Below, piece by piece: positions 1,756-25,816 of a DNA stretch of 64,000 nucleotides. Source of the DNA: Sphingomonas sp. (GTDB lineage: Bacteria > Pseudomonadota > Alphaproteobacteria > Sphingomonadales > Sphingomonadaceae). A model generated the notes under the pieces. The model worked only from the letters and a program-made list of their open reading frames with translations. It searched no databases and was not told the origin of the DNA. The translations under genes were made by a program, and so were the position numbers. The stretch spans positions 24,724 through 88,723 of the forward strand of contig JAIELC010000027.1 in assembly GCA_019753375.1 (NCBI GenBank), in the 5' to 3' direction. Within the stretch, counting starts at the first letter, position 1; every line of letters starts with the position of its first letter.

Positions 1756-2904
1756 TCAACGCCAGCGAAGATTGGCGCGCGTCAGGTCGCTTACCTGGCG
1801 CGCGCCCATCAATTTCATGTCGCGTTCGATTTCGCTGCGCAGATTGCCCAATGTCCGCTCGACGCCCGCCTGCCCCGCAGCGGCAAGCGCATACAGGTAC
1901 AGCCGCCCCCCTGAACAGGCCGTGGCCCCGACACTCAGTGCCTTCAGCACATGGCTGCCCCGGGTAATGCCGCCGTCACAGATCACGTCGATCTTGTCGC
2001 CGACCGCGTCGACGATTTCCGCCAGCTGGTCAAAGGGGGCACGGCTGCCATCCAGTTGGCGGCCGCCATGGTTCGACACCATGATCGCGGTGGCGCCGAT
2101 ATCGACCGCGCGGCGCGCGTCTTCCACCGACATGATCCCTTTCAGGCAAAACTGGCCGCCCCAGTCGGCACGGATCGCTTCGGCGGTTTTCCAGTCCAGC
2201 GACTGATCGAGCATTTTGGTGAAATAGTCGCCGACCGACATCGACTTGCGCGATCCTTCGTCAAGGTAATCCTTCAGGTTGGACAGCTCAAATGGGTCGC
2301 GGAACAGGTAATTGAGCGTCCACCGCGGGTGCATGGCAAAGCTGAGTGCGGAACCCGGGGTCAGGCGCGGGGGCGATGTGAAGCCGGTTCGCAAACAGCG
2401 TTCGCGGTTGCCCCCGACGATCGTGTCGACGGTCAGCGCGATCGCGTCGAACTTCGCCGCCTTGCACGCCGCAATCATCGCGGCATTCAGGCCCTTGTCC
2501 TTATGGACGTAAAGCTGAAACAGCTTGGGGCTGCTGATTGACTGGCCGATTTCGGCGATACTGACCGTGGCGAGCGAGGAAATACCGAACCAGGTGCCAA
2601 ATTTTTCGGCGGCGGCGGCCACCGCGCGCTCGCCGCGCCAATGGAACAGCCGCTGCAGCGCAGTCGGCGACAGGAACAGCGGCATCGCAATCCGCTTGCC
2701 CATCACCGTGACGCTCATGTCGATGTCTTCGACGCCCGCCAGCACATTGGGGACCAGATCGCAGCTTTCATACGCCGCCGTGTTGCGCCGCCGGGTGACT
2801 TCATCGTCGGCCGCGCCGTCGATGTAATGGAACACCGGCCCGGGCAGCCGCGCGCGTGCCAGCCGCCGGAAATCGTCGATATTGTGGCAGTCGTTAAGCC
2901 GCAT
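1756..2904 (-). CDS. lldD: alpha-hydroxy-acid oxidizing protein (FMN-dependent L-lactate dehydrogenase type)
   Basis: FMN_dh family motifs: '[10 protein letters not shown]', '[18 protein letters not shown]'. Confidence 0.85.
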
Positions 2905-3057
2905 CGCTCTGGGCTAGGCGGTGAGGGCAGCGAGGGCAAGCGCTCTCCACCAGCGACCGCGCTCGGCATCGCCAACGCCGGCGCCGGGTACGGTCTTGAG
3001 GCCGGGGTGGCATCTTTGGCTTTGAACTCTTGCGCCGAACCGCTTAGCCGGGACGAT

Positions 3058-4707
3058 ATGAGCGACACCAACTCCCGCAAGACTGCTATCGTAATTGGCT
3101 CCGGCATCGGCGGCATTGCCTGCGCGATCCGCCTGCAAAGCCTGGGCTTCGATACCAGCTTGCTCGAAAAACTCGATGCACCGGGCGGCCGCGCCTATGT
3201 TCGCCGTGCCGAGGGCTTTACGTTCGACATGGGGCCGACGGTCTTGACCGTGCCGCACTTCATCGAAGAGTTGTTCAGCCTTGAACGCGATCACGCGATG
3301 CTCGGCCTGCCTGATTTCCCGCCGGAAATCCTGGGCGATGACAAGCGCATCACGAGCGGCATCAGTGGCGGACCCAACACAAGCCGTTATCTGGAAATCA
3401 TCCCGATCCTGCCGTTCTACCGCATCTATTTCGACGATGGCACTTTCTTTGATTACGATGCCGATCCGGTGCGCGTGCGCGAACAGATCAAGGCATTGGC
3501 GCCCGAAGACCTCGACGGCTATGAACGCTTCCACGAAGCCGCCCGGGCGATTTTCAATCGGGGGTTCCTCGAACTTGGCTACACCTATTTCGGCAATGTC
3601 GGCCGGATGCTCGGCGTGGTGCCCGATCTGCTCAAGCTCGGCGCGGTCCAGCCGCTGTTTTCGCTGATCAAGAAGTATTTCAAGTCCGACAAAATGCGCC
3701 AGGTGTTCAGCTTTGAACCCCTGCTGGTGGGCGGCAACCCGATGAAGGTGCCCGCCATCTATGCGATGATCCATTTCGTCGAAAAGACCTGGGGCATCCA
3801 TTTCGCGCGCGGCGGTACCGGCGCGCTGGTCGCCGCAATGATCACCAAATTCGAGGAAATGGGCGGCACCACGCGGCTGAATGCAGGCGTGACGCGGATC
3901 AATGTCGAAAAGCGCGGCGGCAAGCGCGTTGCAACCGGGGTGACGCTGGAATCGGGCGAAACGATTGCCGCCGATCTGGTGGTCTCGAACGCCGATTACG
4001 CGACGACGTATATGAAGCTGATCGACAAGAAGCACCGCACGATCAACCGCGACGCGCTGGTCAAGTTCCGCAAGCAGTCAATGTCGCTAATGGTGATCTA
4101 TTTCGGCTATCGGAAGCAGGCGGGCGATCCCGATCTGCAGCACCACAACATCATCCTCGGGCCGCGCTACGAGGAATTGCTGACCGACATCTTCGAGCGG
4201 AAAATTCTCGCGCCCGATTTCTCGCAATATCTCCACATCCCCACGCTCACCGACCCGAGCCTCGCGCCCGAGGGGCATCACGCGGCCTATACGCTGATCC
4301 CGGTGCCGAATAATCACAGCGATCTCGATTGGAGCAAGGTCGGCGAAGGCTTCAAGGACAAGGTGCTGACGTTCCTCGAAGAGCGCGGCTATATTCCCAA
4401 CCTGAAAGAACGGCTGGTGTACGAAAGTTTCGTCACGCCCGATTATTTCGAGCAGGTGCTGAGTTCGTACGTTGGCAATGGCTTTGGCGTCGAGCCGGTG
4501 TTGACCCAGACAGCGTTCTTCCGCCCGCACAACCGCAGCGAGGATGTGTCCAACCTTTATCTGGTCGGCCAAAGCACCCAGCCCGGCGGCGGGACGCCAT
4601 CGGTGATGATGTCGGCAAAGATGACCGCGCGTGAAATCGCCAAGGATTTCGCGGTCGATCCGGCGGTGGTCAACGGCGTCCCGGAGCCGCTGTCGGTCGC
4701 AGCATAG
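3058..4707 (+). CDS. crtI: phytoene desaturase
   Basis: N-terminal FAD-binding [13 protein letters not shown], 'GGRAYV', C-terminal '[21 protein letters not shown]'; start MSDTNSRK. Confidence 0.93.
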
Positions 4708-4779
4708 CGCCCGCTGCGCCAGCTATCGTCATCACGGCGCTGCGCGCCCCCGGCACCAGCGCCGGGAGCGCCCATTGCG

Positions 4780-5523
4780 TCAAATCGTAAAGCCGCCGTC
4801 GATATCGATCAGCGCGCCCGTGATGTAGCTTGCCTCATCGCTCGCGAGGAAGGCGGCAAGCGCGGCGACTTCATCGGCCTTGCCATAACGGCCAAGCGCG
4901 GTGAGGGGGGTCAGCACACTGGCAAACGGACCTTCGGCAGGGTTCAGATCGGTATCGATCGGCCCCGGCTGGATGACATTAACCAATATGCCGCGCGCAC
5001 CCAGATCGCGCGCCCAGCCGCGCGCCAGCCCGGCGACCGCAGCCTTGGTGGCGCCGTAAACCGCACCGCCCTGAACCGGCATGCTATGCGCATTGATGCT
5101 GCCGATAATCAGGATCCGGCCGCCATCGTTCAGATGTGGCATGGCTGCCTTGGTACCGTGATAGACGCCGTCAACGTTGATCGCGAACATCCGTTCGTAG
5201 GACGCAGTGTCCTCGACCGAAACCGGAGCGAAATCAGCGACGCCGGCGTTGTGGACAAGAATATCGATCTTGCCGAGCATCGCGGCAGCGTCGTTGATGG
5301 CGCGCTCGGTTTCGACCCGGTCGCCGGCATTGGCCTTGATGGCCGACCCCTTGCGGCCCGCCGCGGTGATCGCGGCAACCACCTGATTGGCGGCGTCCTG
5401 ATTACCGGCATAGGTAATGACAACGTCGGCGCCTTCAGCGGCCAGCCGCTTGGCGATCGCGGCGCCAATGCCGCGTGCGCCGCCTGTGACGAGGGCGGTC
5501 TTGCCTTCAAGTTTCTTGGTCAT
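4780..5523 (-). CDS. SDR family oxidoreductase (3-oxoacyl-ACP reductase-like)
   Basis: TGGARGIGAAIAKRL, NNAG-type 'HNAG', YGATKAA; start MTKKLEGKTALVTGG. Confidence 0.88.
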   Translation of the reverse strand: MTKKLEGKTALVTGGARGIGAAIAKRLAAEGADVVITYAGNQDAANQVVAAITAAGRKGSAIKANAGDRVETERAINDAAAMLGKIDILVHNAGVADFAPVSVEDTASYERMFAINVDGVYHGTKAAMPHLNDGGRILIIGSINAHSMPVQGGAVYGATKAAVAGLARGWARDLGARGILVNVIQPGPIDTDLNPAEGPFASVLTPLTALGRYGKADEVAALAAFLASDEASYITGALIDIDGGFTI

Positions 5524-5721
5524 GGATGCGTTCCTTCTGGTCGGACGAAAGCGGCCCAACGCCGTCCCGTTCGCTCTTGCGGGAAATGGGCCCGCGCGGC
5601 GGGCAATCAATAGACGAACGCAGGATGCACTGTCGGATGCAAAATTTACACCAGCTAGCATTTGCGGGGCGGCGCGCGCTTGTGTATCGGACGGGCACGC
5701 AATGAAGGGAAGACGCTAGCA

Positions 5722-6507
5722 ATGGCCGAGTTCGCGCTGCCGAAAAATTCCAGGATCACGTCTAACGGCAAGTCTCATCAAGCGACCGGCGATGCGAAAC
5801 GCATCAAGAAATTCAAAATCTATCGCTATGATCCCGATAGCGGCGCCAATCCGCGCTATGACCGGTTCGAGGTCAATCTGGACGAGTGCGGTCCGATGGT
5901 ACTCGACGCGCTGATCAAGATGAAGGCCGAGCAGGATTCGTCGCTGACTTTTCGTCGATCGTGCCGCGAGGGGATTTGCGGATCGTGCGCGATGAACATC
6001 GATGGCACCAACACGCTCGCCTGCACCAAGGCGATCGAGGATGTGAAGGGCGAGGTCCAGATCACGCCCTTGCCGCATATGGAAGTCATCAAGGATCTGG
6101 TCCCCGACTTCACCCATTTTTACGCCCAATATGCCTCGATCAAGCCGTGGCTGCAGACCGTCACGGCCCCGCCCAGCGGCAAGGAACGACTGCAGTCGCC
6201 CGAAGATCGGTCAAAGCTTGATGGATTGTACGAGTGCATCCTGTGCGCCTGCTGCTCGACGAGCTGCCCCAGCTATTGGTGGAACAGTGACAAATTTCTT
6301 GGTCCGGCTATTCTGCTGCAGGCCTATCGCTGGCTGGCCGACAGCCGCGACGAAATGACCGGCGAGCGGCTCGACGAGCTGGAAGACCCCTTCCGGCTGT
6401 ATCGGTGCCACACGATCATGAACTGCGCGAATGTTTGCCCCAAGGGGCTCAACCCCGCCAAGGCGATCGCGGAGATCAAGAAGATGGAAGTAGAGCGAGT
6501 CGCCTGA
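5722..6507 (+). CDS. sdhB: succinate dehydrogenase iron-sulfur subunit
   Basis: [48 protein letters not shown] motifs. Confidence 0.97.
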
Positions 6508-6518
6508 TCGGGACATTT

Positions 6519-6980
6519 GTGTCGGACGCTCCCCACTTCACCTATGCACCGGCGCCCGATCATCCCGGCTGGATGACATGGCAACTCGCGGACACGACAC
6601 GGTTCAACAGCCTGTTCGGACCGTTACTGCTCAAGGTTGAGGATGGCGTCGCACGGGTACGGATGACCCCGGCGCTGATCCATGCCAATCTGTCGGGGCG
6701 CATGCATGGCGGCGCGCTGCTGGGCTTTATCGATATTGCCCTGTTCGCGGCGTCGCGGGGCTTTGGGCTGATTCAGGCGGGGACGTCGGTCACCGTTGAT
6801 CTTTCGACACAGTTTATGGGCGGTGCGCGGATTGGCGAGCCTGTCGAGGTGCAGGTCGAGCTGCTGCGCCAGACGCGCCGATTGCTGTTCCTGCGCGGTC
6901 TGGTGGTCCAGGATGCCGATAATATCGCGTCGTTTGGCGCGACGATCCGCAAGCCGACGGGGGATGGTGCGGCCGCATGA
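6519..6980 (+). CDS. PaaI family thioesterase
   Basis: Hotdog fold 'HANLSGRMHGGALLGFID'; GTG start. Confidence 0.75.
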   Translation: MSDAPHFTYAPAPDHPGWMTWQLADTTRFNSLFGPLLLKVEDGVARVRMTPALIHANLSGRMHGGALLGFIDIALFAASRGFGLIQAGTSVTVDLSTQFMGGARIGEPVEVQVELLRQTRRLLFLRGLVVQDADNIASFGATIRKPTGDGAAA

Positions 6981-8089
6981 CCTTTGTCATTGATCGCTAC
7001 AACCAGCTGATCGCGGCGGGCGAATTGCGGCCCGATCCCGAACAGCAGGCCGCGGTTCTTCGACTGGCGGCGGTTGCGACTGAATTGGAAGCGACGCCGC
7101 CGCGCGGATCGGTCTTGTGGCGCGCCTTAGGGCGGCTGCCCGATCCACCGCGCGGCGTTTACCTGTGGGGTGGGGTCGGCCGCGGCAAATCGATGCTGAT
7201 GGATCTGTTTTTCAGCTGCGTCGACATTCGCCGCAAACGCCGCGTGCATTTTCATGAATTCATGATCGAAGTGCATGCGCGCATCGCGCAGGAGCGCGAG
7301 AAAGAGGCCGGCGATCCGATTGTGCCGGTTGCCACCGCGATGGTTGGCGAAGCGCGGTTGCTGGCCTTTGATGAAATGGTGATCAACAATTCGGCGGATG
7401 CGATGATCCTGTCGCGGTTGTTCACCGCGATGTGGGCGCGCGGGCTGACCGTGGTCGCAACATCCAACCGCCCGCCCGGCGACCTCTACAAGGACGGGCT
7501 GAACCGCGAACATTTCCTGCCCTTTATCGCGTTGTTGCGCGACAAGACCGATGTGATCGGCCTGAACGGCCCGACCGATTATCGCCGCGACCGGCTGGGG
7601 CCGATGGATTTATGGCACGTCCCCAATGGCCCGGCCGCGACCGCCGCGCTGTCGGCGGCGTTTTTCCGGCTGACCGATTACCCGCCCGAAGACCGCGCGC
7701 ATGTGCCGACCGAGGATATTCCGGTCGGGCAGGGGCGCACGCTGCACGTGCCCAAAAGCCTGAAGGGCGTGGCGGTATTCAGTTTCAGGCGATTGTGCGG
7801 TGAACCGCGCGGCGCGTCTGATTATCTGGCGATCGCGCGGCGCTTTCACACCGTTATCATTGTGGGTATCCCCCGGCTCGGCCCGGAAAACCGCAACGAA
7901 GCGGCGCGCTTCGTCACCTTGATCGACGCGCTATATGAAAACAGCGTCAAACTGATTGCGGCGGCCGATGCGCCGCCCGAGCAATTATACCGCGCGGGCG
8001 ACGGCGCGTTTGAATTTGAACGGACCGTCAGCCGGCTGAAGGAGATGCAGTCGGACGCGTATCTGGCGCGCGGTCACGGAATCGGTTGA
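6977..8089 (+). CDS. zapE: cell division protein ZapE (AFG1-like ATPase)
   Basis: Walker A 'GGVGRGKSMLMDLFF', 'RVHFHEFM', 'LAFDEMVINNSADAMIL'; 4 bp overlap with upstream thioesterase. Confidence 0.92.
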   Translation: MTFVIDRYNQLIAAGELRPDPEQQAAVLRLAAVATELEATPPRGSVLWRALGRLPDPPRGVYLWGGVGRGKSMLMDLFFSCVDIRRKRRVHFHEFMIEVHARIAQEREKEAGDPIVPVATAMVGEARLLAFDEMVINNSADAMILSRLFTAMWARGLTVVATSNRPPGDLYKDGLNREHFLPFIALLRDKTDVIGLNGPTDYRRDRLGPMDLWHVPNGPAATAALSAAFFRLTDYPPEDRAHVPTEDIPVGQGRTLHVPKSLKGVAVFSFRRLCGEPRGASDYLAIARRFHTVIIVGIPRLGPENRNEAARFVTLIDALYENSVKLIAAADAPPEQLYRAGDGAFEFERTVSRLKEMQSDAYLARGHGIG

Positions 8090-9170
8090 ACAGCGTCGCC
8101 AGCCGCGCGCGCAGCCACGGTTCTGGCCAGCGCGCAATCGCCCAGGCGAGCAGCAGCATTAGCAAAACCGTCAGCGCCTGTGCGACGCGCAGCGGCACAT
8201 TGTGTCCCAGCAACGTGGCGATCACGACGGCGCCGGCGTCCTGATGGATCAGGTAAAGCGGATACGTCATCAACCCGACCGTGCGGGCGGTGCCGGGGGA
8301 TATCCAGCGAGAAAGCGGTGTCTGCAGGTGCGGGGCCAATATCACAACGCCCAAAGCAACCAGAAAAATGCCCTGTGCCGTGCTGCCGGATACTGCGACG
8401 GCCATTGCCGCCTCGCGGCCCTCGCTGTGGGCGCTGATCTCGATAAGCGCCGCCGCCGTCAGCACGACCATCAATGCGCCGCGCGCAGGACCCAAGGGCC
8501 GGGTGTGGATCGCGGCAATCATCATGCCGAGCGCAAAGAACACGCCATAAGGCAGCAGTAATAAGGTTGCGGCTTGATTGGACATGACCGCAAGCATCAG
8601 CGTGGGCTGGAAAAGCGTGGCTAGCCATCCAGCTGCACTGACGAGGCCAAGCACCCAGGCGAGCTGTTCTATCCTCTGCGGTGTCCCATGGCTGCCCAAC
8701 GTTATCGCCACCGCAAGGTAGAAAAAGGTCTCGACGCCCAACGTCCAATAGACATCGTCGATCTGGTTGCCGATCGGCCAGAATGCCACGGACCGCAGCC
8801 AATCAAAGCCAATGGCAGGACCAAAATGGCCGCTGGCCGCGAGCATTGCAAACGTGACCGTCGCGCATATCCAGACGGCGGGAACCAAGCGTAAGAATCG
8901 CCGTCGCACAAATGAACGCCAGTCGGCTTGTAGTGCGGATCGGGCGATTACCAGACCCGAAATCACGAAGAATATCTCTACACCGACCCACCCGACCCGG
9001 CTGATCGCCATCCCCGAATTGGCCTCGCCATAGGACGTCAGCACAGACGCCGCGTGGTTGCTGGGTGACAGCCAATATCCCACGTCGACATGGTAGACGA
9101 CAACCAGCATTGCGCAGGCAAAGCGGATCATATCAATCGCAATGATTGGCTCGGATCGTTTGCCTCGCAT
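8028..9170 (-). CDS. acyltransferase family protein (OafA/Acyl_transf_3)
   Basis: 'IDMIRFACAMLVVVYHV', 'GWVGVEIFFVISGLVIARSA', multi-TM. Confidence 0.85.
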   Translation of the reverse strand: MRGKRSEPIIAIDMIRFACAMLVVVYHVDVGYWLSPSNHAASVLTSYGEANSGMAISRVGWVGVEIFFVISGLVIARSALQADWRSFVRRRFLRLVPAVWICATVTFAMLAASGHFGPAIGFDWLRSVAFWPIGNQIDDVYWTLGVETFFYLAVAITLGSHGTPQRIEQLAWVLGLVSAAGWLATLFQPTLMLAVMSNQAATLLLLPYGVFFALGMMIAAIHTRPLGPARGALMVVLTAAALIEISAHSEGREAAMAVAVSGSTAQGIFLVALGVVILAPHLQTPLSRWISPGTARTVGLMTYPLYLIHQDAGAVVIATLLGHNVPLRVAQALTVLLMLLLAWAIARWPEPWLRARLATLFNRFRDRAPDTRPTASPSAG

Positions 9171-9268
9171 TCGGGACGGCCTAACCGGGCAGGTTTAAGA
9201 TCGGGTTGCCAGTGGCGTCGTCAAGCGCGACAAAGGCGCACGTGAGTTTCGGCAAAGGGGGGAACAGC

Positions 9269-9595
9269 ATGCTCGTCACCACCACGGAAAATGTGCCCGG
9301 CCATGCCGTCCGCGCGACGTTGGGGCAGGTCTTCGGCGTTGTTGTGCGCAGCCGGGGGATTGGCGGCAACATCACCGCCAGCCTGCGCTCGATCGTCGGG
9401 GGTGAAATCACCGAATATACCCAACTGGTCGAAGAAACCCGGCGGCAGGCGATTGACCGGATGATCCATAATGCGGTGCTGATGGGCGCAAACGCGGTGG
9501 TGATGATGCGGTTCGATTCGGGTGAGATTGCGCAGGCGATGAACGAAGTGATCGCCTATGGCACCGCTGTTATCCTTGATCCGGTGCCTGAGTGA
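9269..9595 (+). CDS. YbjQ family (UPF0145) protein
   Basis: 'TTTENVPGHAVRATLGQVFGVVVRS...MGANAVVMMRFDS' typical of YbjQ. Confidence 0.85.
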   Translation: MLVTTTENVPGHAVRATLGQVFGVVVRSRGIGGNITASLRSIVGGEITEYTQLVEETRRQAIDRMIHNAVLMGANAVVMMRFDSGEIAQAMNEVIAYGTAVILDPVPE

Positions 9596-9888
9596 TGCTG
9601 CGCAACGCCGTGCTGGCCTTTGCCGTCCTGCTCGCCGGCATCGGCATTGCGGGGCTGGTGGTCGACGGATCGACCTTTCCGTTCCTGCTGATGGCGCTGG
9701 TCATTCTGGGTGGCACGCTGTTCGAGCGCCGCCGGTACGGCGCGGCCGCAATGCGCGCGCCGGTCGGCCCTGCGTGGAAGGCGACACCGGAACGTTTTGT
9801 CGATGAATCGGGGGTTGCCGTGCGCGTCTGGTTCAACGCCGCAACCGGTGAACGACGCTACGTCGCAGACGATTCAGCACCCGACTGA
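9592..9888 (+). CDS. hypothetical membrane protein
   Basis: Two N-terminal TM segments, 4 bp overlap with upstream ybjQ-like gene. Confidence 0.6.
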   Translation: MMLRNAVLAFAVLLAGIGIAGLVVDGSTFPFLLMALVILGGTLFERRRYGAAAMRAPVGPAWKATPERFVDESGVAVRVWFNAATGERRYVADDSAPD

Positions 9889-9901
9889 CGGCGACATTCG
9901 C

Positions 9902-9922
9902 TATTGCGAATGAAATGCAATA
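9902..9922. promoter_or_regulatory. palindromic operator candidate TATTGC-N9-GCAATA upstream of mdh (Fur-like appearance)
   Basis: TATTGC 9902-9907 / GCAATA 9917-9922; overlaps the inverted repeat CATTCGC-TATT-GCGAATG 9895-9912. Confidence 0.35.
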
Positions 9923-9923
9923 A

Positions 9924-10999
<1,076 letters not shown>

Positions 11000-11000
<1 letters not shown>

Positions 11001-11650
11001 TGCGCGCCGTTGTGATTGCCCTTAGCATAGCCGTAACGTCATCTGCGGCTGCTCAATCCCTGACACTGTCCAGCAAGCGCGGAGAGCCCGCTATAGTCGG
11101 TGGCGGAACTGTACTGGGCGAGAATCTCGGCGTCACTTCGCAATCCCCACAGCAAATTGTCGCACAGTTTAAGAGCCTTTGTTTGCCTGATCCTGCAAAC
11201 GTGGATGCGAAGATACTGATACAACAAGGATTTACTGAGAAGCCTGTTCAATTGGCCGGTCCACCCGCATCCGCGAATGCCCTGACGCATTGGGTTAGCC
11301 CAGTTGCTACCGTGGCATATTGGCGAGGGGATACAGCCGCATTCAAGGGGCAGGCGGTGGCAGTGCCAAGTCGAGCTGCGCTGATAACAGGCCCTTTCAG
11401 CGCATTCGGTCCGCGCGATACGCAATGTACCTTCGTAACGAACGTGGCCGATTTCGAACAAGCCAAATTGGTCACTGAAGCACTCAGTGCAGATTTGGGT
11501 ACGCCTTCGAAACTCGTCGTCAAAAACACATTTGCCGATGGTTTTTGGGCCACGACGAATGGAACCACGACAGTCTACTTCAACACGCCGACGACACGAA
11601 ATGGACCGCAGCCCATACATATCGCGGCGCTTGTGAAAGCATCCAAATGA
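11000..11650 (+). CDS. hypothetical secreted protein between mdh and sucD
   Basis: Signal peptide [23 protein letters not shown] overlaps mdh stop (TGATG) and stop overlaps sucD ATG (ATGA). Confidence 0.75.
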
Positions 11651-12531
11651 GCATCCTCGTCGACAAGAATACCAAGGTCATCACCCAGGGCATGACCGGG
11701 GAAACCGGCAGCTTTCATACCAAGGCAGCGCTCGATTACGGGACGCAGATGGTCGGTGGCGTTACGCCGGGCAAAGGCGGGACGACGCATCTCGATCTGC
11801 CGGTGTTCAACACGGTCGAGGAAGCCGTCGCCAAGACCGGCGCGACCGCCAGCGTCATCTACGTGCCGCCACCCTTTGCCGCCGATTCGATCCTTGAGGC
11901 CATCGACGCGCAGGTGCCACTGATCGTGACGATTACAGAGGGTATTCCGGTACTCGACATGGTCAAGGTCAAACGCGCGCTGTCGGGCTCCAGGTCACGG
12001 CTGATCGGTCCCAACTGCCCGGGCGTGCTGACGCCCGGCGAGTGCAAGATCGGCATCATGCCGGGCAGCATCTTTAAAAAGGGATCGGTCGGCGTTGTCT
12101 CGCGATCGGGCACGCTGACCTATGAAGCCGTGTTCCAGACCAGCAACGCCGGGCTTGGCCAGACGACGGCGGTCGGCATCGGCGGCGATCCGGTCAACGG
12201 CACCAACTTCATCGACGTGCTCGAACTGTTTCTCGCCGATGATGCGACCAAGTCGATCATCATGATTGGTGAAATTGGCGGATCGGCCGAGGAAGAAGCG
12301 GCGCAGTTCCTGCGCGACGAGGCAAAGCGCGGCCGCAAAAAGCCGATGGCGGGCTTTATCGCCGGCCGCACCGCGCCGCCCGGGCGACGAATGGGCCATG
12401 CCGGCGCGATCGTGTCAGGCGGACAGGGCGGCGCCGAGGACAAGATCGCGGCGATGGAAGCCGCCGGCATCAAGGTGGCGGATTCGCCCAGCGAACTCGG
12501 CACGACCTTGCTTGCGGTTTTGAACGGGTGA
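11647..12531 (+). CDS. sucD: succinate--CoA ligase (ADP-forming) subunit alpha
   Basis: '[18 protein letters not shown]', '[20 protein letters not shown]', '[17 protein letters not shown]'. Confidence 0.97.
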
Positions 12532-12535
12532 GATT

Positions 12536-12713
12536 TCCCTCTCCCAATCGGGGAGGGGGATACCAACGCGTGTCAGCATGCTGACGGGCACAGATTGGAT
12601 GAGGGTCGGGGCGCGCGCGGTTGGCGGGCGGCTTTTACCCTCACCAGCTTCGACAGGGTCCGCATCGGGTATGCGAACCACGTCTGCGCAACCCTTTCTC
12701 CGCAGAGAAAGGG
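12536..12713. repeat. cluster of palindromic (REP-like) elements between sucD and sucA
   Basis: Hairpins 12536-12560 (TCCCTCTCCC/GGGGAGGGGGA), 12572-12585 (GTCAGCATGCTGAC), 12692-12713 (CCCTTTCTC-CGCA-GAGAAAGGG). Confidence 0.55.
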
Positions 12714-12731
12714 ATGAGAAGGACAAAGACC

Positions 12732-15665
12732 ATGGGCTATGAAGGCCAGGATTTCGAAGCGCTTGCCGGATCGGTAAGCCCGGCATTCATCGAGTCGCTT
12801 TACGCGCGGTACAAGGCATCGCCCGACAGCGTCGAGCCGGCATGGCGGGCGCTGTTCGACGGGCTTGACGGGACGCCGCAAGCACCAAGCTGGGGTCATC
12901 CCGGCTGGCCCGGCAGCGCAACCGACGATCTGACCTCGGCGCTCGATCCGACCCAGATGGAGCCAGCGCCCAAGCCAACGAAAAGCGGCGCGCCCAAGGC
13001 TGATGTCGCGCCCGTCGCCGCGCCGCAGCTCGATGTAACGCAGGCCGCGGCCGACTCGATCCGCGCGATGATGCTGATCCGCACCTATCGGGTGCGCGGG
13101 CATCTGGCCGCCGATCTCGATCCGCTGGGCATTGCCCACCATGATCTGCCCGCCGATCTGACTCCCGAATATCACGGCTTTTCGGGTGCTGACCTTGATC
13201 GTCCGGTCTATCTTGGCGGCACGCTGGGCATGCAATGGGGCACCGTGCGCCAGATCGTCGAGATCCTGCGCCGCAATTACTGCGGCAAGGTCGGCCTGGA
13301 ATATATGCATATCGCCGATGTCGAGGAGCGCCGCTTCCTGCAGGAGCGGATGGAGGGCCAGGACAAGGCGATCGAATTTTCGCCGATGGGCAAAAAGGCG
13401 ATCCTCAACAAGGTGATCGAAGGCGAGCAGTGGGAGAAATTCTGCGCCCGCAAATATGTCGGCACCAAACGTTTCGGGCTTGATGGCGGCGAATCGATGA
13501 TCCCCGCGCTTGAAGCGGTGATCAAATATGGCGGTCAGTTTGGTATCCGCGAAATTGTCTATGGCATGGCGCATCGCGGGCGACTGAACGTGCTGGCGAA
13601 CGTGATGGCCAAGGCGTACCGCGTGATCTTCCACGAATTCGGCGGGGGTTCGGACAATCCGGATGATGTCGCGGGTTCCGGCGACGTGAAATACCATCTC
13701 GGCACCAGCACCGACCGCGAATTTGACGGCATCAATGTCCATATGTCGTTGGTTGCCAACCCATCGCATCTGGAAGCCGCCGACCCGGTCGTGCTCGGCA
13801 AGGTGCGCGCCATTCAGACGATTGCGGGCGATCTGGCCGATCACAGCGGCTCGCTGCCGGTGCTGATTCACGGCGACGCGGCGTTTGCCGGGCAGGGCAT
13901 CGTTTGGGAATGTCTGGGTTTTTCGGGAATTCGCGGCTATAATACGGGCGGTTGCCTGCACTTCATCATCAACAACCAGATCGGCTTCACGACCAGCCCG
14001 CAATTTGCGCGGTCCTCGCCCTATCCGTCCGACGTGGCCAAGGGTGTTCAGGCGCCGATCTTCCACGTGAATGGCGATGATCCCGAAGCGGTGACGTTCG
14101 CGTGCAAGATGGCGATCGAGTTCCGCCAGCGCTTCAAACGCGACATCGTTATCGACATGTGGTGCTATCGCCGCTTTGGCCATAATGAAGGCGACGAGCC
14201 AAGTTTCACGCAGCCATTAATGTACGACCGCATCCGTAAGCATCCGCCGGTCAGCGATGTCTATGGCAAGAGACTGATGGAGCAGGGCGTGGTCGATCAG
14301 GCATGGATCGACGGCGCGGTCAAAAGCTTCAACGACCTGCTTGAGGGCGAATTTGAAGCGGGCGCCAGCTATAAACCCAACAAGGCGGACTGGTTTGCGG
14401 GCCGCTGGTCAGGGCTGCACGCCCCCGCCGACGCGGAAAGCGCGCGGCGCAATGTAGAAACCGGCATCGACAAAAAGCTGTTCGATGCGCTGGGTCGCAC
14501 GCTGACCACGGTCCCCGACACGGTGAAAATCCACAAGACGCTGGGCCGCGTGATCGATGCCAAGCGCGAGATGTTCAATTCGGGCACCAATTTCGACTGG
14601 GCAACCGGCGAAGCGCTCGCGTTCGGATCGCTGCTGTCCGAAGGCTACGGCGTCCGCCTGTCGGGTCAGGACTCGGGGCGCGGGACCTTCAGCCAGCGTC
14701 ATGCGGTGTGGGTCGATCAGACCGATGAGCACAAATATGTGCCGCTTCAGACCATCGAGCATGGCAGCTTCGAAGTACTCGACAGCCCGTTATCGGAATA
14801 TGGCGTGCTCGGCTTTGAATATGGCTATGCCCTTGCCGATCCAAAGACATTGGTGCTGTGGGAAGCGCAATTTGGCGATTTCATGAACGGCGCGCAGATC
14901 ATGATTGATCAGTTCATTGCCGCCGGCGAAGCCAAATGGCTGCGGGCCAACGGCCTCGTGATGCTGTTGCCGCACGGTTATGAAGGGCAGGGCCCTGAGC
15001 ATAGCTCGGCGCGGATCGAACGCTTCCTTCAGCTCTGTGCGCAGGACAATATGCAGGTCGCCAATTGCACGACACCGGCGAATTATTTCCATCTGCTGCG
15101 GCGCCAGATGCACCGCCCGTTCCGCAAGCCGCTGATCGTCTTCACGCCGAAATCGCTGCTGCGTCACAAGCTGGCGGTATCGAAGGCAGAAGATTTCCAG
15201 GGCGAGGCACATTTCATGCGCATCCTGTCTGATCCGGCGGCGCCGGCGGACAAGGACGTCAGGCGCCTGGTGCTGTGTTCGGGCAAGGTGGCGTATGACC
15301 TGATGGAGGCACGTGACGCGGCGGGCGACACCAGCACCGCGATCGTGCGCCTGGAACAGCTTTATCCCTTCCCGGGGGATCCGCTTACCGTCCGGCTGAA
15401 GCGCATGGCCGCGCTGGAAGACGTGGTGTGGGCGCAGGAAGAACCAAAGAATAACGGCGCATGGAGCTTTGTTGAACCGTTTATCGAGGAAAGCCTTGCC
15501 GCTGCCAAGACACAGGTCGCCCGGCCCCGTTATGCGGGCCGTGCTGCCTCTGCTTCGCCCGCAACGGGACTGATGAAACGCCACCAGATGGAACAGGCCG
15601 CGCTTGTCGCCGACGCCCTGGGGCATAATGTTCGCGGGGAAATCCGGCGGACAAGAAAGACCTGA
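12732..15665 (+). CDS. sucA: 2-oxoglutarate dehydrogenase E1 component
   Basis: N-terminal 'FIESLYARYKASPDSVEPAW', 'GMAHRGRLNVL', 'HGDAAFAGQGIVWE'. Confidence 0.97.
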   Translation: MGYEGQDFEALAGSVSPAFIESLYARYKASPDSVEPAWRALFDGLDGTPQAPSWGHPGWPGSATDDLTSALDPTQMEPAPKPTKSGAPKADVAPVAAPQLDVTQAAADSIRAMMLIRTYRVRGHLAADLDPLGIAHHDLPADLTPEYHGFSGADLDRPVYLGGTLGMQWGTVRQIVEILRRNYCGKVGLEYMHIADVEERRFLQERMEGQDKAIEFSPMGKKAILNKVIEGEQWEKFCARKYVGTKRFGLDGGESMIPALEAVIKYGGQFGIREIVYGMAHRGRLNVLANVMAKAYRVIFHEFGGGSDNPDDVAGSGDVKYHLGTSTDREFDGINVHMSLVANPSHLEAADPVVLGKVRAIQTIAGDLADHSGSLPVLIHGDAAFAGQGIVWECLGFSGIRGYNTGGCLHFIINNQIGFTTSPQFARSSPYPSDVAKGVQAPIFHVNGDDPEAVTFACKMAIEFRQRFKRDIVIDMWCYRRFGHNEGDEPSFTQPLMYDRIRKHPPVSDVYGKRLMEQGVVDQAWIDGAVKSFNDLLEGEFEAGASYKPNKADWFAGRWSGLHAPADAESARRNVETGIDKKLFDALGRTLTTVPDTVKIHKTLGRVIDAKREMFNSGTNFDWATGEALAFGSLLSEGYGVRLSGQDSGRGTFSQRHAVWVDQTDEHKYVPLQTIEHGSFEVLDSPLSEYGVLGFEYGYALADPKTLVLWEAQFGDFMNGAQIMIDQFIAAGEAKWLRANGLVMLLPHGYEGQGPEHSSARIERFLQLCAQDNMQVANCTTPANYFHLLRRQMHRPFRKPLIVFTPKSLLRHKLAVSKAEDFQGEAHFMRILSDPAAPADKDVRRLVLCSGKVAYDLMEARDAAGDTSTAIVRLEQLYPFPGDPLTVRLKRMAALEDVVWAQEEPKNNGAWSFVEPFIEESLAAAKTQVARPRYAGRAASASPATGLMKRHQMEQAALVADALGHNVRGEIRRTRKT

Positions 15666-20178: not shown

Positions 20179-23118
20179 ATGCTGACTCACATAAGCGTTC
20201 GCGGCGCGCGCGAGCATAATCTTAAAGACGTTTCGGTGGATATTCCGCGCGACACGCTGACGGTCATTACCGGCCTGTCTGGCTCGGGCAAGTCGAGCCT
20301 GGCGTTCGACACCATCTATGCCGAAGGGCAGCGCCGCTATGTTGAATCGCTGTCGGCCTATGCGCGCCAATTTCTTGAAATGATGCAAAAGCCCGATGTC
20401 GATCATATCGAGGGACTGTCCCCGGCGATCAGCATCGAGCAGAAGACGACCAGCCGAAACCCGCGCTCGACTGTCGCGACCGTGACCGAAATCTATGATT
20501 ATATGCGGCTGTTATGGGCGCGGGTTGGGATTCCCTATTCGCCCGCCACCGGTCTGCCGATCTCGGCACAGACGGTCAGCCAGATGGTCGACCGGGTCAT
20601 GGCGCTGCCCGAAGGTACCCGGCTGTATCTGCTTGCGCCGGTGGTGCGCGGCCGCAAGGGTGAATATCGCAAGGAGCTGGCGGAGTGGCAAAAGGCCGGC
20701 TTCACCCGCGTCCGCATCGATGGCGACCTGTACGAAATTGATGAAGCCCCCGCGCTCGACAAGAAATACAAGCACGACATCGAAGTCGTTGTAGACCGGC
20801 TGGTCGTTGGCGCCGACATCGCGACGCGGCTGGCCGACAGTTTTGAAACCGCGCTGAAGCTGGCCGACGGGCTGGCCTTTGCCGATCTGGTCGATGGCGT
20901 CGTGCCGGGCCGTGAGGATGAGGCGCTCGACGCCGGCCAGATGAAAGGCGCGGGCATCCCGCCCAACCGCATCGTGTTCAGCGAAAAATTCGCCTGCCCC
21001 GTATCAGGTTTCACCATCGCCGAAATCGAACCCCGTCTGTTCAGCTTCAACGCCCCGCAAGGCGCGTGCCCGGCGTGCGACGGGCTGGGCGAAAAACTGC
21101 TGTTCGACGAAGACCTTGTTGTTCCCAACCACGCGCTCAGCATCAAAAAGGGCGCGGTCGTGCCCTGGGCGAAATCGCAACCGCCCAGCCCCTATTACAT
21201 GCAGGTACTGGGCAGCCTGGCGCGCGAATTCGGCTTCAGCCTTGATACCCCCTGGCAGGATCTGCCCGGCGACGTGCGGCTGATCATCCTCTACGGCACC
21301 GGCGGCAAGCCCGTCACGCTGACTTTTGTCGACGGGCGCAAGACCTATGACGTGAAAAAGCCGTTCGAGGGCGTGATCGGCAATCTCAACCGCCGCATGC
21401 TCAGCACCGAAAGCGCGTGGATGCGCGAGGAACTGAGCAAATATCAAAGCTCCGCTCCGTGCGAGGTGTGCGGCGGCGCGCGGTTGAAGCCAGAGGCGCT
21501 GGCGGTCAAAGTCGGCATGCGCGACATCAGCAGCATCACCCATTTGTCGGTGGTCGATGCGCTCGACTGGTTTCAGGCCATTCCGGCTGATTTGTCGCCG
21601 CAACAAAACGCCATCGCCGAACGCATCCTGAAGGAGATTCTCGAACGGCTTGGCTTTCTCAACAATGTCGGGCTCGATTACCTCAACCTTGATCGCACCA
21701 GCGGCACGCTCAGCGGCGGCGAAAGCCAGCGCATCCGGCTTGCCAGCCAGATCGGCAGTGGGCTGTCGGGCGTGCTCTATGTGCTCGATGAACCCAGCAT
21801 CGGTCTGCACCAGCGCGATAACGACATGCTGCTCGCCACGCTCCGCCGGCTGCGCGATCTGGGCAATACCGTGCTGGTCGTCGAACATGATGAAGACGCG
21901 ATCCGGTCTGCCGATTACATCCTTGATATGGGCCCCGGCGCGGGCGTGCACGGCGGCGACGTGGTTGCGCGCGGCACACTGGCGGAGATCCTCGCAACCA
22001 CCGGCAGCGTCACCGCCGATTATCTGAACGGCACGCGCGAAATCCCGGTGCCGGCCAAGCGCCGCAAGGGCAATGGCAAGAAACTGACCGTCCACGGCGC
22101 CACCGCCAATAATCTGCGCGGCGTTACCGCCGGCATCCCGCTGGGCACCTTTACCTGCGTCACCGGCGTATCGGGATCGGGCAAGTCGAGCTTCACGATC
22201 GACACGCTCTACGCCGCCGCTGCCCGCACGCTCAACGGCGCGCGGCTGATCGCGGGTAAGCATGACAAGATCACCGGCCTCGAATATTGCGACAAGGTCA
22301 TCGATATCGACCAGTCACCCATCGGCCGCACCCCGCGCAGCAACCCGGCCACCTATACCGGCGCCTTTACCTCGATCCGCGACTGGTTCGCCGGCCTGCC
22401 CGAGGCGCAGGCGCGGGGCTATAAACCCGGCCGCTTCAGCTTCAACGTCAAGGGCGGCCGCTGTGAAGCCTGCACCGGGGACGGGCTGATCAAGATCGAA
22501 ATGCACTTCCTGCCCGATGTCTATGTGACGTGCGATGTCTGCCACGGCGCGCGCTATAATCGCGAGACGCTGGAAGTGAAGTTCAAGGGCATGAGCATCG
22601 CCGACGTCCTGAACATGACGGTTGAGGACGCGGTGGAATTTTTCAAGGCAGTGCCCCCCATCCGCGACAAGATGGCGATGCTCGCCGAAGTCGGGCTGGG
22701 CTATGTCAAGGTTGGCCAGCAAGCCACCACCCTGTCGGGTGGCGAAGCACAGCGCGTCAAACTTGCCAAGGAACTCGCCCGCCGCTCCACCGGGCAAACG
22801 CTCTACATCCTCGATGAACCGACCACCGGGCTGCATTTCGAAGACGTCCGTAAACTCCTCGAAGTGCTCCACGCGCTGGTCGAACAGGGCAATACCGTGG
22901 TGGTGATCGAACATAATCTCGATGTCATCAAGACCGCCGACTGGGTGCTCGATCTGGGGCCGGAAGGCGGCGTAAAGGGCGGCGAGGTTGTGGCCGAGGG
23001 GACGCCCGAACAAGTGGTCAAGGAACCCCGCAGCTTCACCGGCCAGTATCTGAAGCCGCTGTTGGAACGAAAGGCCTTAACGGCGCGGTCGAAGCGCGAA
23101 GAGGTGGCGGCGGAGTGA
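20179..23118 (+). CDS. uvrA: excinuclease ABC subunit UvrA
   Basis: '[21 protein letters not shown]', '[14 protein letters not shown]', '[16 protein letters not shown]', zinc finger CEACTGDG. Confidence 0.98.
22810..23088. repeat. direct repeat copy 1: uvrA 3' end (within intact uvrA)
   Basis: Near-identical to 23861-24137; see findings. Confidence 0.95.
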
Positions 23119-23663
23119 GTTACCGCCCGGAATTCGAAGCCGCCCTCCGCCTGCTCGCTCGAGCCAGCGAGGCAATGGTGGCACGCGGTTATCAACGCCC
23201 AATCCTTGTCGGCGGCGCGGCGGCAGAATTCTGGTCGACCAGCGCGGTCAGCACCGGCGATTTTGATCTCTGCACACCGCGCCAGTCCGAACTTGAGGAA
23301 GAATTGCAGCGTCTCGGTTTCGTCAAACCGTCCGGACCGGGTATGGCGACGCGGGGCTGGATACATCCTGATCTGGTTTTGGGTTTTGAAGTCGTTGCCG
23401 ACGTGCCGATGGACGGCACCGTCGATGCGGCGCGCATCCGCCTCGTTCAGCCTGTTGGTGAGACCGCGCTGTTCCGGGTGATTTCGGTTGAAGACCTGAT
23501 CGCCGATCGCATGGGCCAATATGCGTCCGGCACGGCGCGCGACCGGCTTGATCAGGCGCGCTTGCTGCTTGCTCTTCATCCCGATGCCGATCTGGAGTAT
23601 CTCGATCGGCGGATACGCGAAGAAAGCGATGGCGATTATGGCGTCAAGGACATGCAAGGCTGA
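23115..23663 (+). CDS. nucleotidyltransferase-fold protein (MNT/AbiEii-like)
   Basis: '[23 protein letters not shown]' resembles the GG..(S)T.D.D nucleotidyltransferase signature; GTG start overlaps uvrA TGA. Confidence 0.7.
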
Positions 23664-23835
23664 CGTTGCGGAGGGGCAGTTGCCAGTCATCGACATGGCA
23701 GCAATGGGTCAGCGCATCGCCGCGCGCAAAGCCGCTCTTGGCTTGCCCGATCTGCCCCGCAACAGCGGCAAGCGCCGCACGGCGAGCAAGCAGGCGTTGC
23801 TCAAAGCGATTGAGGATGCGGGTGGAGATTGGTGA
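23638..23835 (+). CDS. small hypothetical protein overlapping the end of the nucleotidyltransferase gene
   Basis: In-frame ORF with C-terminus '[38 protein letters not shown]'; real start uncertain (23638 or further downstream). Confidence 0.5.
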
Positions 23836-23860
23836 GTTTAGCAAGCTGGCACCCCAATTT

Positions 23861-24152
23861 CTCGATGAACCAACCACTGGCCTGCATTTCGAAGACGTCC
23901 GTAAACTCCTCGAAGTGCTCCACGCGCTGGTCGAACAGGGCAATACCGTGGTGGTGACCGACCATAATCGATGTCATCAAGACCGCCGACTGGGTGCTCG
24001 ATCTGGGGCCGGAAGGCGGCGTAAAGGGCGGCGAGGTTGTGGCCGAGGGGACGCCCGAACAAGTGGTCAAGGAACCCCGCAGCTTCACCGGCCAGTATCT
24101 GAAGCCGCTGTTGGAACGAAAGGCCTTAACGGCGCGGGCAGCGGTCGGATGA
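23861..24152 (+). pseudogene. truncated, frameshifted second copy of the uvrA 3' end
   Basis: Matches 22810-23088 with synonymous differences at its 5' end and a 2 nt deletion (CATAATCTCGATG to CATAATCGATG); after the indel it reads through its own uvrA-frame C-terminus '...[14 protein letters not shown]'. Confidence 0.93.
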
Positions 24153-24189
24153 AATTGACGCCTGCCGATACGCCCAGCAAGATGCGCGC

Positions 24190-24408
24190 ATGACAGCGCG
24201 CGTGGTTATCGATCCGGAAGTATGCGGCGGTCGGCAGATCGTCGCTGGCACACGCATGCGGGTCAGCGACGTGCTCGATGCGTTAGCGTCATCCGTCAGC
24301 ATGGAGGAATTGCTCGGCGATTTTCCATATCTGACGCGCGAAGATGTCATCGCTTGCCTTACCTATGGCGCCCGCGCGGTTGATCATGCGGTGGTGCAAG
24401 CCGCCTGA
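24190..24408 (+). CDS. DUF433 domain-containing protein (putative antitoxin)
   Basis: '[56 protein letters not shown]' is typical DUF433. Confidence 0.88.
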
Positions 24409-24521
24409 TGCGGTTGCTGGTCGATGCCCAGCTTCCGCTTCACCGATGCCACCGTGATCATCCGCGCCTCTACCAAACGCGCGTGGCTTTTGCGCGTGGA
24501 CCTAAGGCGATCCCGCCTTCA
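24408..24521 (+). pseudogene. truncated DUF5615 (PIN-like) toxin start joined to a fragment of the SRAP gene
   Basis: Starts [10 protein letters not shown] (DUF5615 N-terminus), then similarity is lost at a 47 bp segment matching 25269-25315. Confidence 0.65.
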
Positions 24522-24800
24522 TTACAGGCCCACGGCCTTGCGCAGCGCCTCGTTCATCCGTCCCTGCCAGCCCGGCCCACCCTCCCGGAATTTGGCGATT
24601 ACATCAGGGTCAACCCGTAACGTCACCTGCTGCTTCGCCACGCCGCGGATCGGCGGGCGGCCCGCCGTGCGCCACGCGCCGGGGCGGATGACCTGATCGC
24701 CGACGCGCACTTCGGCGCTGTCGAACATCTCCTGAGTCCATTCGGGCGCGTCGTCGGGGTCAACCCAGCCGCTGGCCAAACCAGCTTTGTTCTCGCTCAT
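24522..24800 (-). CDS. brnA: BrnA family antitoxin
   Basis: 'TAGRPPIRGVAKQQVTLRVDPDVIAKFREGGPGWQGRMNEALRKAV' typical BrnA; overlaps the end of brnT. Confidence 0.88.
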   Translation of the reverse strand: MSENKAGLASGWVDPDDAPEWTQEMFDSAEVRVGDQVIRPGAWRTAGRPPIRGVAKQQVTLRVDPDVIAKFREGGPGWQGRMNEALRKAVGL

Positions 24801-25032
24801 TGCATTTCCTCATCGAAATAACGCGACGACCGGTTTTGGTCTCCGCCCACACTACCATCACCAGTCGTTCGTCGAGCAGGCCAAAAGTCTGGAACCGGGC
24901 TTCCGCATAATCGAACCGGTCATCCGGTTGCGTATAGGTCAGCCCCGCGAACAGCCGCGGCGCATCGGCGAAATCCAGACCGCGCTCGGACAACGTCTTC
25001 TTGCGCTTGGCAGGGTCGAAACTGATCTCCAC
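24760..25032 (-). CDS. brnT: BrnT family toxin
   Basis: 'ISFDPAKRKKTLSERGLDFADAPRLF...RVISMRKCNEREQ' typical BrnT. Confidence 0.9.
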   Translation of the reverse strand: MEISFDPAKRKKTLSERGLDFADAPRLFAGLTYTQPDDRFDYAEARFQTFGLLDERLVMVVWAETKTGRRVISMRKCNEREQSWFGQRLG

Positions 25033-25159: not shown

Positions 25160-25816
25160 ATGTGCAATGAAGCTGCTCGCCGCATCGCTCTGGGTCAGCT
25201 CCGCGATGATTGGTCGCAACTGAAGATCCCGCTGCGTTTTCCGGAGGGCGCGCCCAACATGGCGCCCTTGCCCAGCATCCGCATCACCGATGCCACCGTG
25301 ATCATCCGCGCCTCTGCCGAAGGCGCGGCCCCCGGCGTTGGGCTTGGCGCTGGCACCGGGCTTGCCGCCGAACTCGTCTCACGGCGGTGGAGCTGGCCGA
25401 TGGGCGGCAAAATGGGCAGCAAGCCGCTGTATAACTACCGCAGCGAGGGGCGCAGCTTTGCCAATAGCGCGACCGGCGGGCGCTGCCTGATCCCGGTGGA
25501 TGGTTTTTATGAATTCACCGCGCCCGTTGATCCGGCGCAGAAGCGCAAGACCAAATGGATCTTCACCCCCGCGCCCAATGGTCCGCTAGCGGGTGACTAT
25601 CTGTGCATCGCCGGGCTGTGGCGCGCCGATGCGGCGGTGGGGGAAGCCTTTACGATGCTCACCTGTGATCCCGGCCCCGATGTCGCGCCCTATCATGCGC
25701 GGCAAGTGGTGCTGATGCCGCGCGCGCATTGGGGCGACTGGATTGGTGGGGTGGTGCCCTCTGCCGATCTTATCGCACCGGCGGCGGCGGGGTCGTTGCT
25801 GGTCGCGCGGGTGTAA
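25160..25816 (+). CDS. SRAP domain-containing protein (YedK/HMCES-like)
   Basis: Catalytic M-C-N N-terminus, 'NYRSEGRSFANSATGGRCLIPVDGFYEF', 'PYHARQVVLMP'. Confidence 0.93.
   Translation: MCNEAARRIALGQLRDDWSQLKIPLRFPEGAPNMAPLPSIRITDATVIIRASAEGAAPGVGLGAGTGLAAELVSRRWSWPMGGKMGSKPLYNYRSEGRSFANSATGGRCLIPVDGFYEFTAPVDPAQKRKTKWIFTPAPNGPLAGDYLCIAGLWRADAAVGEAFTMLTCDPGPDVAPYHARQVVLMPRAHWGDWIGGVVPSADLIAPAAAGSLLVARV

Follow-up and report, generated by a model that had tools for sequence, protein, structure and literature searches.

Displaced uvrA 3' ends behind a nucleotidyltransferase-like gene pair in Sphingomonas: probable import by homologous recombination

Integrative elements such as genomic islands and prophages can restore the 3' end of a protein gene. 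The displacement seen in Vibrio T6SS effector-immunity arrays and in orphan 3' ends of Rhs genes has been attributed to homology-facilitated illegitimate recombination (PMC5361080), and in E. coli a defence island adjoins uvrA-ssb (PMC11728103). In the literature searched, we found no report of insertions behind uvrA in Sphingomonas. In this genus the region 3' of uvrA is an insertion hotspot, and a two-gene module found there is in several genomes followed by a second, displaced copy of the uvrA end.

The repeated uvrA 3' end in the window

The window, a stretch of 64,000 nucleotides from a draft Sphingomonas assembly (158 contigs, 88% complete), carries an intact uvrA gene whose 3' end recurs downstream as a direct repeat (Table 1). 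Pairwise alignment bore out the sequence-only reading on this point. The copies are identical at 272 of 277 aligned bases, with an offset of 1051 that becomes 1049 past a 2-nt deletion in copy 2 near 23967, and the alignment score of 520 compares with at most 27 in shuffled controls. Apart from the deletion, the copies differ by five substitutions. Three of these (22821 G/A, 22827 C/T and 22830 G/C, copy 1/copy 2) are all synonymous and fall within the first 21 bp of the repeat, while 22907 T/C and 22911 A/C adjoin the deletion; the 170 bp of the repeat past the deletion contain no differences. At the right end the copies part beyond GCGCGG, and they then end differently in the uvrA frame, with SKREEVAAE* in copy 1 and TARAAVG* in copy 2, so that the left-edge differences and the unlike ends were both correctly described. 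Copy 2 is frameshifted and most of uvrA is absent from it. The two copies bracket a nucleotidyltransferase (NTase)-like ORF and a 51-codon ORF, also as first described, and the GTG start of the NTase-like gene overlaps the uvrA stop by 4 nt (GTGA).

Table 1. Features around the 3' end of uvrA, in window positions
Feature	Positions	Strand	Basis or remark
uvrA, intact	20179..23118	+	Pfam UvrA_inter and UvrA_DNA-bind; repeat
Copy 1, repeated uvrA 3' segment	22810..23088	+	Repeat alignment
uvrA tail (SKREEVAAE*)	after 23088	+	Probably imported, judging from G146
NTase-like gene, 182 aa, GTG start	23115..23663	+	GG(x14)DxD-type motif
51-codon gene, TTG start, ends GG.W*	23680..23835	+	Nearly always paired with NTase-like gene
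25-bp spacer, right-hand junction of the module	23836..23860	+	Junction comparison
Copy 2 left edge, three synonymous differences	23861..23881	+	Probably donor-derived
Copy 2, displaced and frameshifted uvrA 3' remnant	23861..24137	+	Repeat alignment
Copy 2 tail (...AAVG*)	24138..24153	+	Likely native uvrA end or later junction

Paralogy within UvrA was considered as a source of the repeat and rejected, the paralogous first ATPase half (21784-21892) matching at only 67%. An assembly artefact, which the sequence-only reading had named as an alternative, is unlikely because equivalent arrangements are present in the single-contig genome G033 and in other assemblies.

Displaced uvrA ends across the genus

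The comparison set comprised 295 genomes of the genus Sphingomonas. In most of them the uvrA 3' end was matched twice, once per ATPase half, and about a dozen carried extra partial copies of the 3' end beyond these paralogues. Of the two control genes, tgt gave second matches to its C-terminal part in just 2 of the 295 genomes, and the second matches of mdh were clouded by full-length paralogues. G203 and G302, drafts with contamination or splitting that gave odd extra matches at contig ends, were left out.

A second uvrA 3' end was found behind the gene pair in nine genomes (the window, G186, G258, G108, G146, G152, G033, G191 and G065). G289 has a 25-bp trace of the uvrA end in this place, and in G141 and G143 the NTase-like gene is decayed and the uvrA remnant is still present. 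The remnant begins at differing uvrA codons from genome to genome, in most cases 0-40 bp past the stop of the small gene (67 bp in G191, 382 bp in G108). The right-hand joints vary accordingly between genomes, and later deletions may also have shaped them. At the G065 junction, the last bases and stop of the small gene coincide with a 7-bp uvrA microhomology, GTGGTGA. In G191 the remnant (L077, reverse strand, 1384-1520) is broken by short inserts resembling dispersed repetitive elements.

G033 has a third, more diverged uvrA copy 9 kb further on, past other genes. Several accessory genes lie between its second and third uvrA ends (L046, reverse strand, 2050-14000), and ImmA-like and HD-domain-like genes, named by eye, follow the third. 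This gene order suggests successive insertions.

Most relatives have an empty site, with uvrA but no module, as the sequence-only reading had predicted. Its further prediction, that uvrA in such relatives would end in TARAAVG*, failed: the ends are hypervariable and often read ...VAAE*, as in copy 1, and the set holds no close sister of the window species. Across Sphingomonas the last ~20 uvrA codons are hypervariable, with a mean DNA identity of 62% in the last 60-nt bin versus ~87% before it. The tails differ even between the close relatives G002 and G023, where the downstream genes differ too.

The native copy was called by comparison with the nearest relatives, which gave a clear answer in G146, an ambiguous one in G186, G033 and G141 and none for the window. 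Compared with its module-free close relatives G002 and G023, the uvrA of G146 is 95-100% identical per 60-nt window as far as about nt 720 of the fragment compared; beyond this, over the last ~75 bp, identity is only 77-78%. The remnant behind the NTase-like and small genes of G146 matches the native tail of G023 at 97% identity. This comparison settles the direction: the intact uvrA of G146 gained its foreign tail along with the module, and its native tail was moved downstream. The switch in identity lies within the coding sequence, where a homologous crossover would leave it, and the native sequence is kept downstream.

A second class of locus was found in G269, G100, G115 and G022, in which uvrA is intact but foreign in its 3' part or at its extreme tail, and a spacer and a native-looking remnant come after it. 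The spacer holds the palindrome AGTCCGGGGGACT. Spacer and remnant are seen at a contig start in G028, and G031 has a decayed form. GC3 in the uvrA tail is 0.65-0.71, versus 0.91-0.94 upstream (G269, G115 and G100), and therefore the intact copy is the foreign one in this class. The foreign part starts at differing places in uvrA, later in G022 than in the other genomes of the class, which fits homologous exchange. G269, G100 and G028 have a common left boundary at codon 208 of the compared fragment, after the shared palindromic spacer. The loci of this class are L074 (reverse strand, 880-1039), L075 (955-1163), L076 (865-1053), L045 (~790-900) and L044 (1-250); in the first three, no cargo lies between the AT-richer foreign uvrA tail and the native remnant.

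Codon-level differences between the copies were used to examine their history. Synonymous differences outnumber nonsynonymous ones 33 to 6 in G186 (p=1.8e-14), 22 to 5 in G033 (27 to 6 for its third copy) and, in the second class, 20 to 1 in G269, 28 to 0 in G100 and 17 to 0 in G115. Such a strong excess indicates that the copies had evolved apart, each in a working uvrA gene of its own, before they were brought together. The excess is weaker in G218, G065, G141 and G258, and the differences in G108, G143 and G152 are equally explained by decay. The window copies, with 3 synonymous and 2 nonsynonymous differences, give no significant result (p=0.11).

The history of the module was also compared with that of uvrA. 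In 46 genomes, relatedness of the NTase-like gene is correlated with that of the final ~300 nt of the uvrA fragment (Mantel p=0.002) and not with that of the preceding 450 nt (p 0.08-0.67), with p=0.06-0.09 when the 3' and 5' parts are contrasted directly.

The gene pair and its surroundings

The NTase-like protein is matched in 60 of the 295 genomes, two of these matches being distant (35%), and the 51-codon gene stands beside it in all but three of the matching genomes. The pair lies directly 3' of uvrA in 46 of the 295 genomes and 2 kb behind uvrA in one more. In ten others it lies behind a gene we take to be grpE and before one we take to be threonine-synthase-like, both named from their sequence (L114, L116, L117, L123, L125, L127, L132, L134, L135 and L138). 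Duplicated flanks were sought at the grpE-linked modules, in about ten genomes, and none were found.

The GG(x14)DxD-type motif, typical of nucleotidyltransferases, is invariant in 33 aligned relatives of the NTase-like protein. Searches of the protein against Pfam, NCBIfam and PDB profiles returned no family match, and its single-sequence AlphaFold model (pLDDT 51) was too poor for a structure search. The motif, the pairing and the neighbouring genes of such type (DUF433, BrnT/BrnA) suggest that the pair may have a toxin-antitoxin or defence role. AbiEii nucleotidyltransferase toxin-antitoxin systems likewise combine a GG...DxD motif with a small partner gene. Unlike them, the window protein has no Pfam or NCBIfam match and only a sub-threshold PADLOC match to AbiEii (E=0.02), and its 51-codon partner matches no family and falls far short of the AbiEi antitoxin in size.

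The NTase-like gene is essentially absent from plasmids, where two distant matches were found. Carriage of the uvrA 3' end and the module by phages or plasmids was considered and set aside, since the phage and plasmid matches, judged without gene context, resembled ordinary uvrA homologues.

Further genes of toxin-antitoxin-like type follow copy 2 in the window. At 24190-24483 and 25269-25327, a DUF433 gene stands before a partner gene cut down to its first ~10 codons; this usual partner is intact in L041, L055, L034 and L074. The truncated partner leads into 59 bp that copy (92%) the interior of a downstream SRAP gene, and TGCCCAGCNTCCGC is shared at the joint. This joint is a second illegitimate-joining scar beside toxin-antitoxin-like genes. 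Between the 59-bp fragment and the SRAP gene lies a BrnT/BrnA toxin-antitoxin pair (24522-25032, minus strand).

Origin of the arrangement and comparison with known systems

We consider it likely that homologous recombination in uvrA imported a foreign end of that gene and the module behind it, that the right junction was illegitimate and that the native end was left behind. Incoming DNA from another strain would bring its own uvrA 3' end followed by the passenger, the NTase-like and 51-codon genes. The donor DNA would recombine homologously inside the host uvrA, and the gene would stay intact with a foreign tail. The other end, with no long stretch of homology to pair with, would join at differing points within the native 3' end of the host uvrA, and that native end would stay downstream as a decaying remnant. 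Homologous recombination rather than a dedicated integration enzyme is most likely; the process would presumably depend on RecA, and some DNA vehicle would presumably have carried the incoming segment.

The sequence-only reading had proposed a cassette that carried in a replacement terminus, with the ancestral end remaining as a remnant. This holds in G146 when compared with G002 and G023, and the synonymous bias elsewhere supports it; in the window itself, the two copies do not form a simple foreign and native pair. Their middle ~250 bp are nearly identical and both edges differ. Since Sphingomonas species differ by ~14% across the uvrA stretch matching the repeat middle, a foreign and a native end would be expected to differ there too, and a second recombination or gene conversion is therefore needed. 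The import in the window is inferred from the other genomes; the nearest uvrA is only 89% identical over 510 nt, so that the window species has no empty-site comparison.

The second step probably took one of two routes. By one, two homologous crossovers would have exchanged a module that already had a remnant at its side. Both middles would then be host DNA, and donor DNA would make up the left edge of copy 2 as well as copy 1's tail. The other option is that gene conversion recently homogenised the copies of an older duplication, which may go back to an ancestral insertion shared with G186. This option is nested within the import explanation and we regard it as possible, if tentative. The closest NTase-like protein is that of G186 (87% aa), where the remnant lies at nearly the same place, and an identical middle with divergent edges is the classic pattern of conversion. 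The same data fit a two-crossover exchange, however, and the window and G186 have unlike junctions.

A tandem duplication within the genome, of the uvrA 3' end with the NTase-like and small genes, followed by loss of the second gene pair, appears improbable. The window taken alone would agree with it, as its middle ~250 bp are identical bar one small cluster, as for a recent local copy, and the joining of the small-gene end to the uvrA interior is the type of junction expected. Against it, the three synonymous changes in the window crowd at the left edge of copy 2, within 21 bp, and tblastn found no trace of a second NTase-like gene behind any remnant. Beyond the window, the copies in G186, G033, G269, G100 and G115 differ almost only synonymously, which is not the pattern of neutral decay, and in G146 it is the intact tail that is foreign and the remnant that is native.

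Site-specific integration at the uvrA 3' end, in which an attP would restore the gene in the manner of genomic islands and prophages and the integrase would since have been lost or act in trans, is highly improbable: it would account for the restored uvrA end (the foreign tail on the intact uvrA of G146 and the open uvrA frame in the window) and for the single left boundary of G269, G100 and G028, but no recombinase ORF lies between the window repeats, module junctions fall at many uvrA codons rather than at a fixed att core, tail crossover points differ in the second class also (for example in G022), and the repeats are far longer than att cores. No PF00589 integrase was found on the window's contig, in agreement with the earlier remark that none was visible, and in G146, G065 and G033 none lies within 60 kb of uvrA. 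With no integrase and variable right junctions, the att-like reading raised at first gives way to homologous recombination in uvrA, which the data fit.

A broader reading of the imported module, which we find doubtful, is that the gene pair is an integrase-free mobile unit with the uvrA 3' end as its homology handle, and at the same time a new toxin-antitoxin or defence type. Each insertion would create flanking uvrA copies, through which the unit could enter any other uvrA in a simple homologous exchange and leave again when the copies recombine with each other. The toxin-antitoxin or defence type would then be tied to repair and chaperone genes (uvrA and grpE).

These loci provide a natural and repeated record of accessory-gene gain behind a core gene without integrases, in which every event and its direction can be read from the imported core-gene end and the displaced native one. 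The UvrA C-terminus has been swapped repeatedly between species, which affects uvrA-based phylogenies. The record also brings to light an undescribed two-gene module that occupies essentially two sites, behind uvrA and behind grpE, in about one fifth of Sphingomonas species.

As in integrative elements that restore a 3' end, the host gene is intact with a replacement end and the native end lies at the far side. The uvrA module differs from them in having no integrase or fixed core, variable junctions, long repeats and a tiny cargo. The likeness to the displacement at Vibrio T6SS and Rhs loci extends to the probable mechanism: the module would be anchored by homology to a conserved upstream gene, its non-homologous end would be joined illegitimately with the old 3' sequence kept downstream, and later spread would be by ordinary homologous recombination. 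In contrast to those loci, the anchor in Sphingomonas is a core DNA-repair gene and not a toxin gene, and it is uvrA's own coding end that gives way to a replacement and lies displaced as a dead remnant without obvious use. In the replacement and displacement of the uvrA end we see a new form of the process that had been proposed to act at Rhs and T6SS loci.
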